Assembly (NCBI GenBank): GCA_029240105.1
Contig: JARBTR010000001.1
Coordinates: 116,633-180,632 of the forward strand
From: Caryophanales bacterium
Lineage (GTDB): Bacteria; Bacillota; Bacilli; JARBTR01
Direction of reading: 5' to 3'
Length of the DNA stretch: 64,000 bases
Part shown: positions 4,153 through 59,266 of the stretch, in pieces
Numbering within the stretch: the first letter of the stretch is position 1
Layout of the letters: every line of letters starts with the position of its first letter
Notes under the pieces: model-generated
The model's input: only the letters and a program-made list of their open reading frames with translations
Told to the model about the DNA's origin: nothing
Databases searched by the model: none
Program-made: the position numbers and the translations under genes

Positions 4153-4818
4153 ATGGGAAAATTTAAAAGTGTTTTTGACATTATTGGACCGGTTATGATT
4201 GGCCCTTCCAGTTCACACACTGCAGGTGCAGCTCGAATTGGTCGTGTGGCTAGAAATTTATTTGATCGTGAGCCTAAATGGGTACAAATTCATTTATTTG
4301 GATCTTTTGCAAGAACGCATAAGGGACATGGAACAGATGAGGCAATTGTTGGTGGTCTTTTAGATTTTGATACAGATAACCAAGAGATCATTCGTTCACT
4401 TGAAATTTCTAAAGAACGCGGCATCCAAATTCAATTTATTGAAGAAGAAAAAGACGCGGAACATCCGAATACAGCAAAGATTGTAATGGGTGATGATGAT
4501 GGCCAAATTGAAGTCACGGGAATATCTATCGGTGGCGGCAATATTGAAATTATTGGCCTAAACGGTTATGAATTGCATATTTCTGGCGAACATTCAGCAA
4601 TCCTTGTATTACATCATGACCGTTTCGGTGTAATTGCAAATGTTACAAATCTTTTATCGAAAAATAGAATTAATATTGGTCAAATGGAAGTTGCTCGAAA
4701 AGAAAAGGGAAAAATTTCTTTAATGACAATTGAAGTTGACCATAATATCAGTAATGAGCTAATGAAGGAAATTTCCCAATTAGAAAATGTCGTGAACGTA
4801 ACGAGAATAGTTAACTAG
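4153..4818 (+). CDS. sdaAB: L-serine dehydratase, iron-sulfur-dependent, beta subunit
   Basis: FDIIGPVMIGPSSSHTAGAARIG motif plus C-terminal ACT-like domain. Confidence 0.95.
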   Translation: MGKFKSVFDIIGPVMIGPSSSHTAGAARIGRVARNLFDREPKWVQIHLFGSFARTHKGHGTDEAIVGGLLDFDTDNQEIIRSLEISKERGIQIQFIEEEKDAEHPNTAKIVMGDDDGQIEVTGISIGGGNIEIIGLNGYELHISGEHSAILVLHHDRFGVIANVTNLLSKNRINIGQMEVARKEKGKISLMTIEVDHNISNELMKEISQLENVVNVTRIVN

Positions 4819-4940
4819 GTGCTCGAAAAGCCGTTAAACTTTGAAGGAACTGGACCGGAAAACCGGAGTAGTAGGCTTTACGAAAGTAAAACCTACAAGT
4901 TTTTACGGGAAGTTCTCAAAAAGTTGGCTTTGAGAGCCCG
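4818..4940 (+). repeat. Structured intergenic element family 1, copy 1 (candidate ncRNA/MITE-like)
   Basis: GGTGCTCGAAAAGCCGTTAAACTTTGAAGGAACTGGACCGG...ACGGGAAGTTCTCAAAAAGTTGGCTTTGAGAGCCCG; folds into one long arm with GAAA tetraloop; homologous to 50896-51020. Confidence 0.75.
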
Positions 4941-4995
4941 ATTATACCGTGCAGAAAAATTGTTTGAAACCCATTATTAGGAGGAAAACTTCTTA

Positions 4996-7981: not shown

Positions 7982-8034
7982 TTTTATGTTATAATATCGA
8001 TTAGTTTAAGAACAAATATTCTTATATTAAAAAT

Positions 8035-8148
8035 GGGCTATCCAGACCAACTCTTATAAATACTTCTTAAAAATCCCATCATAGTCTATTATTTTTCCAG
8101 GATTTTTAAACAAGTGTCTTCTGAGTTAACCGGACCGCCTTATACACC
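8035..8148 (-). repeat. Structured intergenic element family 1, copy 3 (degenerate, reverse orientation)
   Basis: Reverse complement ends GAGTTGGTCTGGATAGCCC (copy 2: GAGTTGGTCTGGAGAGCCC); 5' end GGTG...CCGGTTAACTCAGAAG aligns with CCGTTAAACTTTGAAG of copy 1. Confidence 0.55.
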
Positions 8149-8164
8149 TTAAGGAGTGAATGAA

Positions 8165-9622: not shown

Positions 9623-9645
9623 TAGATAAGCAATTATAAATTTTT

Positions 9646-9843
9646 TGGGCAACAACTATTGGTACCAGTTGCTTTAGAAGGATGAACAATATGGATGTTT
9701 TGGCAATGAAACCCGCAGGACTCCCGTGGGAAAGTGGGTGCCCGAGACCTTAGGCTCAGGTGCTCACCCACAGGAAAGCACTGCGGGAATTCATCCCAAA
9801 CATCCGCGCAAATGTTTTAAAAGGACAGCTTGCTGGTTTTTCT
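9646..9843 (+). repeat. Palindromic intergenic repeat family 2, copy A (most complete)
   Basis: AACTATTGGTACCAGTTGCTTTAGAAGGATGAACAATATGGATGTTTTGGCAATGAAACCCGCAGG...GAGACCTTAGGCTC...CTGCGGGAATTCATCCCAAACATCC; near-identical to copy B at 49068-49192. Confidence 0.85.
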
Positions 9844-48962: not shown

Positions 48963-49067
48963 TTTAAAATAAATTTTACTTTAAGACCTGCGCAGTATCC
49001 TGAAATGGGAGACTGAGCAGGTTTAATTTGAAAGTAGAGATAAGTTTAAATTTTTTTTCGGCCTTAA

Positions 49068-49192
49068 CTATTGGTACCAGTGGCTTTAGAAGGATGAACA
49101 ATATGGATGTTTTGGCAATGAAACCCGCAGGACTCCCGTGGGAAAGTGGGTGCCTGAGACCTTAGGCTCAGGTGCTCACCTGGTTTTTCTTA
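49068..49192 (+). repeat. Palindromic intergenic repeat family 2, copy B (right half deleted)
   Basis: Near-identical to 9653-9775 of copy A; then jumps from CTCACC to TGGTTTTTCT, which in copy A lies ~60 nt further right. Confidence 0.85.
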
Positions 49193-49318: not shown

Positions 49319-50887
49319 TTATCCTACTTGTTTTGTTTCTTCCTTTGCAGGAACAACGCGTTTGATGAAAAGAGCTAGAGTCAAAGCCACGGCTGCAATT
49401 CCAACAGACACCATAAAGGCGTCGTTGATCCCTTTTAGCATCGCTTCCGTTGTTATTTGCTTTTGCATTGCAAGCTGAGCAGCCTTTTGCTGAGCAGCAT
49501 CTAACACAGGTCCACCGGCCTCAGCTGCTTTCGCAGCCGCCGCCTTCGCAGCTGCAATTGCTTTTGCAGCCAATTCAGTAGCATGCGTTTTAGTACGATT
49601 AGACATAATTGTTACTAGGATTGAGGCACCCATAGCACCTGCAACTTGTTGTAAGGTACTGTTCATTGCCGTTCCGTGAGGATTCATATGTCTTGGTAAT
49701 TGGTTTAATCCATTTGTCATAACTGGCATCATAACCATTGACATCCCAAACATACGTAACGTGTAAAGTAGCACTAAGTTCGTATAAGAGGTATCTAACG
49801 TTAATTGACTAAATAAATACGTTGTGATAACTGTGATTGTAAGGCCAGGTACCGCAAGTACTCGAGCTCCATATTTATCAAATAATCGTCCATTGATAGG
49901 CATCATGATTCCCATAATTAACGCCCCAGGTAACATTAGTAAACCTGATTTAATAGTTGAGATACCACGTAAATTCTGAATATAAATGGGTAGTAATAAC
50001 ATGGCAGAAAACATCGCCATTGAAACCACCATCGAGATCACTGATGATAAAGCAAACATTGGATATTTGTATACTTTAAAATTTAACATCGGTGTTTCTG
50101 ATTTTAATTGTGAAAAGATAAAAATGATTAGCGTAATAAATCCAATAATTAGAGCCGCATATACCTCAGCATTGAAGTTTCCGTTAGCAAGCGTCCAATC
50201 CCAACCTTTTGAGCCAGCAGAACTGAATCCGTATAAAAGCCCTCCAAAACCAATACTGGATAGGATTAATGAAATATAGTTTAACTTTAGTGTTGCTGTT
50301 TTCTTTTCGCCTTTTAATAAGAAGAAACCAATTAAAACAACAGCAAATGCAATAGGAGAAACAACATGGAATAACATTCTCCAGTTATAATGCTCTAAAA
50401 GCCAACCTGATAAAGTTGGTCCGATTGCAGGCGCAGTCATGAATACGATACCGAAAAGTCCCATTGCCATTCCGCGCTTTTCAATTGGAAAACTGCTCAT
50501 CATCACGTTCATCAGTAATGGCATCATAATTGCTGCACCAGATGCCTGAATCAAACGTGCTGTTAATAAAAGACTAAATGTATGAGCAAATCCAGCTGTG
50601 ATTGTTCCAGCTGTGAAAAGTAGCATCGCTGTTAAGAAAATGTTACGAACAGAAAATCGTTGAATTAAGAAAGCTGATGTTGGGATTAAAACTCCGTTAA
50701 CCAACATATAGCCTGTAGATAACCATTGAACAGTGGAAGGTTCAACAGCAAGATCCTTCATGATTGAAGGAAGGGCAACGTTTAATAATGTTTCATTGAA
50801 CATGGAAACGAATGCACCAATCATCATGATGGCGATTATGCCATATGGTGGTTTTTTTGTAGTTTCAGTCATGGTTAAATCCTCCAT
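49319..50887 (-). CDS. DHA2-type MFS multidrug transporter (EmrB/QacA family)
   Basis: NVALPSIMKDLAVEPSTVQWLSTGYMLVNGVLIP; multiple TM helices. Confidence 0.93.
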   Translation of the reverse strand: MEDLTMTETTKKPPYGIIAIMMIGAFVSMFNETLLNVALPSIMKDLAVEPSTVQWLSTGYMLVNGVLIPTSAFLIQRFSVRNIFLTAMLLFTAGTITAGFAHTFSLLLTARLIQASGAAIMMPLLMNVMMSSFPIEKRGMAMGLFGIVFMTAPAIGPTLSGWLLEHYNWRMLFHVVSPIAFAVVLIGFFLLKGEKKTATLKLNYISLILSSIGFGGLLYGFSSAGSKGWDWTLANGNFNAEVYAALIIGFITLIIFIFSQLKSETPMLNFKVYKYPMFALSSVISMVVSMAMFSAMLLLPIYIQNLRGISTIKSGLLMLPGALIMGIMMPINGRLFDKYGARVLAVPGLTITVITTYLFSQLTLDTSYTNLVLLYTLRMFGMSMVMMPVMTNGLNQLPRHMNPHGTAMNSTLQQVAGAMGASILVTIMSNRTKTHATELAAKAIAAAKAAAAKAAEAGGPVLDAAQQKAAQLAMQKQITTEAMLKGINDAFMVSVGIAAVALTLALFIKRVVPAKEETKQVG

Positions 50888-50895
50888 TTGTTCTA

Positions 50896-51020
50896 GGTGC
50901 TCGACAGACCGTTTAGCTCCGAAGCAATTGGACCGAATAACTGAAGAAGTTTGATTAGAGCTTGCGATGAAACTTCGAAGTTATTCGGGAAATTGTCAAG
51001 GAGTTGGTCTGGAGAGCCCG
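50896..51020 (+). repeat. Structured intergenic element family 1, copy 2
   Basis: GGTGCTCGACAGACCGTTTAGCTCCGAAGCAATTGGACCGAATAACT...AGTTATTCGGGAAATTGTCAAGGAGTTGGTCTGGAGAGCCCG; compensatory changes relative to copy 1. Confidence 0.75.
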
Positions 51021-51238
51021 TTTTTGTACTAGTGGTATATTTTTTGAACTTGAGTTACAATATTAGATATTATACCTAGAGTCCAAATTATGCAAGAGGA
51101 AATTTAATGTTTCTTTCCAGTTTGTAACAGCAATTTTAATTATCTAAAATGTTAATCAAATCAATATTGAACTGTAAGTCCAATATTGAAATAATAAACA
51201 AGACATGCAAATAACCAGCAATTTTAAAAGGTGAGATT

Positions 51239-52111
51239 ATGAAAAATAAAAAGCAACACGTGGTAGAGACTGCTGAACGATTATTTAAAGAAAAGGGCTA
51301 TCAGGCCACTTCCATTCAAGACATTATTGAAGCAAGTCAAATTTCAAAAGGAACCTTCTATAATTACTTCACGGCTAAGAATGAATTAGTAATTGAAGTT
51401 TTTCATGATTTTATCAGAAAAGCTGAACTTGATCGGGATGCATTATTAGATGGGAAGGATCCGAGTGACATAACTATTTTTATCAAACAAGTCGAATCAT
51501 TTATTGGTACAGGTAGAAAACAAGGGTTTATGACGTTGTTTGAGGAACTGATCAATTCGCCAGAAGTTGAAGCTAAAAAATTGATGACGATTGGTAAACT
51601 TCGCATGATTCGATGGTTACAACATAGATTTACAGACATTTTTGGTGAGGACAAAAAACCTTACTTACTCGATTGTGCAATTATGTTTTTGGGCTTGCTT
51701 ACGCAAAACATTCATTTTAGTTTCTGGACTAAGAAAACCACTATTGATAAATCAATGATTGTCGCTTACAGTGTGAACAGATTAATTGAGATGGTACAAG
51801 CCTTATCTAAAAGTGGTGAACAGCTCTTTGAAGCATCAGATATTGAGAAGATATTCGATAACTTTTCGAATGAAAAGGAATGTCTTGAAATGAAAATGAA
51901 TCGAATCATTCAAAACATTAAGAAAGAGCTAGAAGGTAAAGAAGTTAAAGAAGCTATAGATTGGCTTGATTTCATCTTAGAAGAAATGACCAAACAAAAA
52001 TCCCCAAGAAAATTCTTAGTAGAAAATGCAGTGCAAGTATTAGAAGGAAATTCACATGTTACAGAACTAGAAGAATTCAAACTGCTAAAAGAGTTCATTT
52101 TAATTGATTAA
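51239..52111 (+). CDS. TetR/AcrR family transcriptional regulator
   Basis: VETAERLFKEKGYQATSIQDIIEASQISKGTFYNYFTAKNEL. Confidence 0.95.
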   Translation: MKNKKQHVVETAERLFKEKGYQATSIQDIIEASQISKGTFYNYFTAKNELVIEVFHDFIRKAELDRDALLDGKDPSDITIFIKQVESFIGTGRKQGFMTLFEELINSPEVEAKKLMTIGKLRMIRWLQHRFTDIFGEDKKPYLLDCAIMFLGLLTQNIHFSFWTKKTTIDKSMIVAYSVNRLIEMVQALSKSGEQLFEASDIEKIFDNFSNEKECLEMKMNRIIQNIKKELEGKEVKEAIDWLDFILEEMTKQKSPRKFLVENAVQVLEGNSHVTELEEFKLLKEFILID

Positions 52112-57219: not shown

Positions 57220-59073
57220 ATGGAAAAAATGCAGTTTAAAGCAGAATCAAAAAGACTTTTAGACATGATGATTCACTCCATTTATTCAAACAAGGAAATT
57301 TTTCTACGGGAACTCATTTCAAATAGCAGTGACGCGATGGATAAAATGTATTACAAGGCGCTTACTGATGATGGGATTGTTTTTGAGAAAGAAAACTATT
57401 ACATAAAAGTAGCTATCGATAAAGAAAACAGAACACTCACAATCTCTGACACTGGGATAGGTATGACCAAGGAAGAACTTGAAAGCAACCTTGGAACAAT
57501 TGCGAAAAGTGGTTCACTTGCATTCAAAACAGAAAATGAATTGAAAGATGGGCACGATATCATCGGTCAATTTGGTGTAGGATTCTATGCTTCTTTCATG
57601 GTAGCGGACACGGTAACTGTGATTAGTAGAGCGCATGGCAGCGAAGAAGCGTATAAGTGGGAATCAACGGGTGCTGAAGGTTATACGATTGAGCCAACAG
57701 ATAAAGAAGAAGTTGGAACAGTCGTTATTCTGAAAATACGTGAGAACTTAGAAGAAGAAAACTACGATGAATATTTAGAAGAATACCGCATTAAAAGCAT
57801 CATTAAGAAATATTCCGATTTCATTCGTTATCCAATCAAAATGAATGTGACGAAGAGTGAAAAAGTTGGGGAAGAATGGGAAGAGCGTCAAGTTGAGGAA
57901 GTCATCAATAGCATGGTTCCGATTTGGAGAAAGAATAAGAGCGAGCTGACAGATGAGGATTATGAAAAATTCTATCAAGAAAAGCATTACGGTTTCGATA
58001 AGCCACTTAAACATATTCATCTGAGTGTAGACGGAACGGTTCGCTATCGTTCAATTTTGTATATTCCAGAGAAAATGCCATTTGATTATTACACGAAAGA
58101 ATATGAAAAAGGTCTAGAGTTATATTCTAGCGGAGTCCTAATCATGAATAAGTGCGGGGACTTACTCCCTGACTATTATAGTTTCGTCAAAGGGATGGTC
58201 GATTCAGAAGACTTATCACTCAACATCTCAAGGGAAATTCTGCAGCAAGATAAGCAATTAAAATTCATTGCAAAGAATCTGAAGAGCAAAATTACACGTG
58301 AACTTCAAAATTTATTAAAGAATGATCGTGAAAAATACGATACATTCTATGGTGCATTTGGTAGACAGCTTAAGTATGGTGTGTACAGTGACTTCGGTAT
58401 GAACAAAGAAGAACTGCAAGACTTGATCATGTTCTACTCATCAAAAGAAAAGAAGCTCGTCACGTTAGATGAATATGTATCTCGCATGCCAGAAGATCAA
58501 AAATATATTTACTATGCAACTGGCGAAACGTATGAACGAATTGAGAAACTTCCACAAACTGAGCTTGTTGCAGACAAAGGCTATGAAATTCTGTACTTCA
58601 CAGACGATATCGATGAGTTTGCAATTAAAATGCTGATGACCTACAAAGAGAAGGAATTTAAGTCCGTTTCTAGTGGTGATTTAGGCATTGAAGCAGAGGA
58701 AAAGAACAAAGAAGTTCAAGAAGAAAATAAAGATCTTTTCGGTAAAATGAAAGACGTGTTAGCTGGTAAAGTTAAAGATGTTCGTGCTTCAACTCGATTG
58801 AAATCCCATCCAGTTTGTTTCTCCACAGATGGCGAAGTTTCTATTGAAATGGAGAAAATCCTTCGTGCAATGCCAAACGACCAAAACATCCAGGCGGAGA
58901 AAGTTCTTGAAATCAACGTGAACCATGCTGTATTCCAGTCTTTGAAGAATGCAGATGAGGCCAAATTAGCGTTATTTACAAACTTACTCTACAACCAAGC
59001 TTGTCTCATCGAAGGGTTACCGGTTGGCGATCCAGTTGAATTCGCTGATTCAATTTGTCAATTGATGGTGTAA
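57220..59073 (+). CDS. htpG: Molecular chaperone HtpG (Hsp90)
   Basis: [39 protein letters not shown]. Confidence 0.96.
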
Positions 59074-59228
59074 ATATACAATAGTTTAGTATACGAGGTT
59101 GATTTCGCTGATTCAATTTGTCAATTGATGTTGTAAATATACAGTAGTTTGGTATACGAGGTTGAATTCGCTGATTCAATTTGTCAATTGATGGTGTAAA
59201 TATACAATAGTTTAGTATACGAGGTTGA
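59035..59228. repeat. 63-bp tandem repeat, three copies, spanning the htpG stop codon
   Basis: Copies at 59035, 59098, 59161; copies 1 and 3 identical, copy 2 has four substitutions. Confidence 0.97.
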
Positions 59229-59266
59229 TTGTAGATTCGAATATCAATTACTATTTAAAAAATAAG

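Follow-up and report, generated by a model that had tools for sequence, protein, structure and literature searches.

A hairpin repeat between a DHA2-type transporter gene and a TetR-type regulator gene: probable copy of a strand-specific, replication-linked interspersed repeat of Bacilli

The structured element W2, located between a transporter gene and a regulator gene in the 64,000-nucleotide stretch of DNA analysed here (the window), is probably a copy of a chromosomal interspersed repeat of the REP/ERIC/MITE kind, non-coding and non-autonomous, which spreads strand-specifically and in connection with replication; we assign this reading a probability of roughly 0.7. The element and its surroundings are as follows.

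50,895–51,028, + strand: W2, structured repeat (match of 109.9 bits to covariance model R2, fold z-score of −6.8, covariation)
49,319–50,872, − strand: DHA2-type transporter gene (open reading frame with the Shine-Dalgarno sequence GGAGG; identity from the earlier note and the protein sequence)
51,239–52,111, + strand: TetR-type regulator gene, tetR (open reading frame; identity from the earlier note and the protein sequence)
50,887–50,894, no strand: left flank of W2, TTTGTTCT, possible 8-bp target duplication matching the right flank at 7 of 8 positions
51,023–51,030, no strand: right flank of W2, TTTGTACT, possible 8-bp target duplication matching the left flank at 7 of 8 positions

The covariance match and the fold confirm the placement given in the earlier note, in which the element lies between the DHA2 gene on the − strand and the tetR gene on the + strand and points toward the latter. 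The likely ATG of the transporter gene is at 50,872, with W2 only 22 nt upstream of it, and the start of tetR is about 210 nt past the 3′ end of W2. This 3′ end continues into GTTTTTGT, a T-rich tail that had already been pointed out and is seen in the sequence. The terminator role that the earlier note suggested for the outer helix is at most a possibility; the terminator scan is silent here, but its loop limit is too small for a hairpin of this length. The copy was probably inserted between the promoter and the Shine-Dalgarno sequence of the DHA2 gene, and any influence on the expression of its neighbours is probably incidental. Between W2 and tetR, at 51,029–51,075, an imperfect inverted repeat, CTAGTGGTATA ... 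TATACCTAGAG, was noticed by eye only; it could be a candidate TetR operator.

W2 forms one long imperfect hairpin of about 130 nt. Starting from the foot, the terminal stem GG(T)GCTC/GAGCCC is followed by the second stem CAGACC/GGTCTG; further inward are a GUUU bulge, a third stem and a UGGACC/GGGAAA internal loop, above which a long inner stem ends in a variable tip. The + strand of the region 50,890–51,030 reaches a folding energy of −59.7 kcal/mol compared to a mean of −34.5 kcal/mol for shuffled sequences (z = −6.8), a value that none of 200 shuffles reaches, and the fold of the − strand is less marked (z = −5.0).

The same structure recurs throughout the genome. The assembly comprises 2.48 Mb in 15 contigs and is 84.9% complete, and a search for relatives gave nothing nearer than the same class. 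Its sequence was examined in the regions that surround copies and in sampled pieces. With a covariance model built from seven copies of this genome (R1), at least about 30 copies were found in both orientations, three of them in the window. Besides W2, these are the following.

4,817–4,948, + strand: W1, between sdaAB and sdaAA (R2 match of 105.0 bits)
8,026–8,149, − strand: W3, a diverged copy upstream of plsX (R2 match of 54.4 bits, E = 4.6e-12)

The first bases of W1 overlap the stop codon TAG of sdaAB, and the copy points toward sdaAA, in agreement with what had been noted before. W3, the third and weaker copy in the window, was absent from the earlier note. Some copies in this genome carry extra helices, which bring the total length up to 270 nt, at some sites two or three copies adjoin one another head to tail, and T-poor tails (GATTATACC, GATAATAGG) are found at many of them. 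Most copies are situated between co-directional housekeeping genes, many within operons; the genes downstream include whiA, uvrC, accC, sufB, aspS and rplR, and smpB, rseP, nusA, mnmA, dnaJ and plsX are likewise preceded by copies, where the gene names are readings of the protein sequences. About three quarters of the sites have the element antisense to the gene on the left, with its 5′ end usually against the Shine-Dalgarno sequence of that gene; at six sites, it is sense to the left gene and starts at the stop codon. Since the genes are functionally unrelated and both orientations are present, a leader of the regulon type does not fit, and the earlier argument from mixed orientation against a simple cis leader holds. 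The 8-bp flanks match at 7 or more of 8 positions in 4 of 25 copies of this genome, where 0.6 would be expected (p = 0.0007). The register of these flank repeats varies from copy to copy, and the target-duplication signal is weak for this reason.

The W2-type element is more than a chance palindrome, as its pairing is kept by compensatory changes. In a structure-free alignment of seven copies of this genome, standard pairs make up 95.6% of the cells at 39 pairs, compared to a mean of 80.6% after shuffling, and changes on both sides occur at 19 of the 39 pairs, compared to a shuffled mean of 10.4, with none of 500 shuffles reaching 19. The covariation score of this alignment is 0.50, as against 0.20 for shuffled alignments and at most 0.12 when the structure is slid. 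Among 33 distinct sequences, changes on both sides are found at 36 of the 39 pairs, in an alignment that was fitted to the structure and thus leans towards it. The second stem, for example, keeps its pairing while its sequence changes among the CAGACC, GGTCGG and AAAGCC types. Of 122 aligned rows, which include some copies twice because they occur in two alignments, 113 fold better as the + strand. In the paired columns, G-U outnumbers A-C, an excess that is significant in three of the four alignments. Both tendencies indicate that a folded single + strand is involved. G-T is better tolerated than A-C in DNA too, and the strand bias therefore fits RNA and single-stranded DNA alike.

The 5′ end of the element is closely associated with stop codons. 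When each site is read in the direction of the element, the left-hand + gene ends at most 7 nt from it at 22 of 30 sites, whereas none of 61 convergent genes on the right-hand side ends within this distance (Fisher, p = 8e-15); this p-value is indicative, because the 7-nt threshold was chosen after the data had been seen and the sites were counted manually. By genome, the left stop codon lies within 7 nt at 6 of 6 sites in this genome, 10 of 12 in G159, 5 of 9 in G473 and 1 of 3 in G272. The junctions at the 5′ end read ATAG, TAAG or AACG in G159 and G473, and TAGG or AAGG in this genome. At one orthologous site, five related species have the protein end LSWMVP in common, together with the stop codon after it, which indicates that the stop codon there is native to the gene. 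The element directly adjoins this stop codon and differs in type, number or completeness among the five species, as if its type were exchangeable at a fixed site.

The orientation of the element is also related to the direction of replication. For G272, G473 and G159, three chromosomes of different families, 20 pieces were sampled from each genome and the fork direction was inferred from their GC skew. The + strand of the element opposes the inferred fork at 71 of 80 sites in G272, 29 of 37 in G473 and 24 of 28 in G159 (78–89%). In a hand tally, opposed sites prevail by 30 to 2 where both neighbours are leading-strand genes and by 8 to 0 where both are lagging-strand genes, which indicates that gene direction does not explain the fork bias. 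In this genome, the ratio is 19 to 6 by local skew and is inseparable from the antisense placement relative to the genes. Both W1 and W2 run with the inferred fork and belong to the six exceptions; the GC skew of the window is positive throughout, and the 16S gene at the end of the window is on the + strand.

The family extends far beyond this genome. Searches with a degenerate pattern identified Oceanobacillus sojae and O. neutriphilus as carriers of the core. The class search with R1 found it in seven of 396 genomes including this one, that is, in six others, a count that under-detects the family. R2, a multi-species covariance model, was applied with strict filters to the order of G159, where it detected the core in 117 of 194 genomes and 58 of 95 genera, and to the class Bacilli, where the figures are 39 of 299 genomes and 22 of 117 genera. 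The highest count, at least 88 matches, was obtained in G272, and four genomes of one genus each gave at least 47–66 BLAST matches to one element locus. Head-to-tail arrays are frequent among the Bacilli copies. No Rfam family was found over the element at the gathering or relaxed thresholds, in this genome or in relatives, and the open-licence literature yielded no earlier description of the hairpin family, although one may exist elsewhere. The sequence comparisons suggest a large non-coding repeat family of Bacilli, found in no catalogue. BLAST searches of plasmids and phages and an exact-pattern scan of viral contigs gave no match to the element; carriage on such elements is therefore unsupported.

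The presence, the type and the array size of the element are not constant between orthologous sites. At the same gene pair in five species of one genus, there are no copies in G480, one in G527, two each in G159 and G051, and eight in G558. The element-free site of G480 has a spacer of 103 bp and represents either an ancestral empty site or a loss. These differences in copy number at the same gene pair show turnover. The Y1 transposase domain PF01797 was found neither in this genome, at 84.9% completeness, nor in G105 and G479; it is present in 14 of 16 high-copy genomes, and in the genomes where both were mapped, no PF01797 gene lies near any of the listed copies.

Several other repeats were observed alongside. 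In Oceanobacillus, the element forms one arm of a conserved repeat that extends over several hundred nt and is apparently multi-branched; the outer stem GCGGACCGTTTTG...CAAAACGGTCCGC also belongs to this larger repeat. In G272, a sequence like TTATCCACA, the DnaA-box consensus, comes after several copies at a distance of up to about 20 nt, as part of a conserved 3′ extension. In G124, tandem 25-nt units AGAAGGCTGTCGAATGAGACGCTGTTA on the 3′ side of the element look as though only the terminal stem had been retained. A second, unrelated repeat family occurs in the window at 49,046–49,180 and 9,634–9,768 (copies 93% alike), with at least about 17 good copies in the genome; it folds no better than its shuffles and contains ACTCCCGTGGGAAAG, which resembles GACTCCTGTGAGGAAAG of the Oceanobacillus composite repeat. 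Three tandem repeats of a 63-bp unit, 93–100% alike, are located at 59,035–59,230.

Among known systems, REP/RAYT repeats resemble the element in being hairpins with many intergenic copies, strand-specific and with a short tag at the 5′ end; when an open reading frame borders on a GTAG REP, its TAG stop codon often comes from the end of the REP (PMC3733652). REPs are 20–40 bp long, whereas the Bacilli element measures 120–150 nt, at most 270 nt, and has conserved internal loops, and the tetranucleotide GTAG/CGTC was not found at the foot of the hairpin, where the junctions are similar but not the same. In RAYT systems, the Y1 gene is usually flanked by REPs; for the Bacilli element, there is none in this genome and none adjacent where mapped. 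Because the enzyme is missing, membership in REP/RAYT is not claimed, and the resemblance is one of the apparent way of working. ERIC/IRU sequences are imperfect palindromes of about 127 bp in transcribed intergenic regions near genes, with variants that carry internal insertions. Compared by description only, they are like the Bacilli element in size and palindromy, but they belong to a different taxon, the enterobacteria; they have been grouped with MITEs (PMC3733652). The fork-opposed orientation and the abutting on stop codons at one end only are features measured on the Bacilli element. The repeats bcr1–bcr18 of the B. cereus group are interspersed, and about half of the copies are transcribed within UTRs or operons; bcr1 has the character of a mobile element (PMC3446304). 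Compared by description, the two differ in range: the title of one report describes bcr1 as specific to the B. cereus group, whereas the Bacilli element spans many genera and families. In Oceanobacillus sojae, the 3′ end of the element is closely followed, on the same strand and inside the larger repeat, by a match to Bacillaceae-1 RNA (RF01690); this is a separate structure, with no match in the window.

Covariation that preserves a fold may also reflect a function at the RNA level, and the repeat may be retained as an mRNA element that stabilises, processes or terminates transcripts in 3′ UTRs or between the genes of operons. The RNA-like conserved internal loops, the covariation, the better fold of the + strand and the start of sense copies at stop codons are in line with this, as is the correlation of bcr3 repeats in B. 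cereus transcripts with longer mRNA half-lives (PMC3446304). We nevertheless consider it unlikely: about three quarters of the copies here are antisense to the left gene, whose mRNA would carry the poorly folding strand, the number, presence and type of copies vary between orthologous sites, and the orientation tracks replication and not the genes. Less likely still is a MITE of the DDE type, that is, a remnant of a defunct insertion sequence that a transposase mobilises in trans and that has inverted ends and target duplications of 8–9 bp. The size, the palindromic ends, the closeness to genes and the flank matches (at least 7 of 8 in 4 of 25 copies, p = 0.0007) agree with such an origin; the stems, however, conserve pairing and not sequence, while transposase-binding ends conserve sequence, and conserved-sequence terminal inverted repeats, a feature of DDE MITEs, were not found. 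The flank-repeat registers are inconsistent, and a strand-specific fold and a fork bias would be unexpected for double-strand cut-and-paste.

In most of the cases with a − gene, in the orientation of the element, the end of the element is about 18–23 nt from the start codon, beside the Shine-Dalgarno sequence, as would be expected of a cis-acting 5′ leader, like a riboswitch or attenuator, read on the − strand of the element. This is very improbable, since the downstream genes are unrelated housekeeping genes (whiA, rplR, aspS, nusA, dnaJ, accC and others), about a quarter of the copies have the opposite orientation after stop codons, and the better-folding strand is the wrong one; furthermore, the copies of G159 upstream of such − genes are at least 45 nt away, and there is no Rfam match. 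A riboswitch- or T-box-like leader was rejected on the basis of orientation and gene functions. The earlier note had left the choice between a free-standing sRNA and a mobile structured repeat, of which the latter is well supported by the at least about 30 copies in both orientations, the arrays, the presence or absence at orthologous sites in related genomes and the near-matching 8-bp flanks of W2. An sRNA gene multiplied in the genome is the least probable of the explanations, in spite of the stable + fold and the T-rich tail of W2. The promoter scan gave no promoter-like site upstream of W2 on the + strand from 50,800 on, and the element starts 22 nt from the DHA2 start codon; most copies begin at a stop codon or beside a Shine-Dalgarno sequence, with no room for their own promoter, and the arrays and the highly variable copy number between species also argue against an sRNA gene.

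With an interspersed repeat as the preferred reading, the spreading process would recognise the + strand as a folded single strand, whose 5′ end would be joined next to a TA(A)G-like sequence, so that stop codons would be favoured targets. Replication would decide which orientation is gained or kept, and arrays would afterwards grow and shrink through recombination. By analogy, a single-strand-DNA route like that of REPs or IS200-type elements may be the likeliest mechanism, although this choice is tentative. More tentative again is the full picture of an ancient Bacilli-wide family that lacks its own Y1 transposase and spreads to the TA(A)G of stop codons by an undescribed process, replication-coupled and strand-specific, possibly through a folded intermediate of single-stranded DNA or RNA. 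Some observations stand against the preferred reading: the candidate target duplications vary in register, where REP-type insertion predicts none, no mobilising enzyme was found, and W1 and W2 run with the fork.

For the locus itself, the likely consequence of W2 is an insertion of 130 nt in the upstream region common to the transporter/regulator pair. On the scale of the family, a repeat carried by over half of the genomes sampled from one order, with tens of copies in many of them, constitutes a gap in genome annotation, and unmasked copies can mislead predictions of sRNAs, terminators and operons. The abutting on stop codons and the fork-opposed orientation provide two testable handles on the spread of repeats in Gram-positive bacteria.
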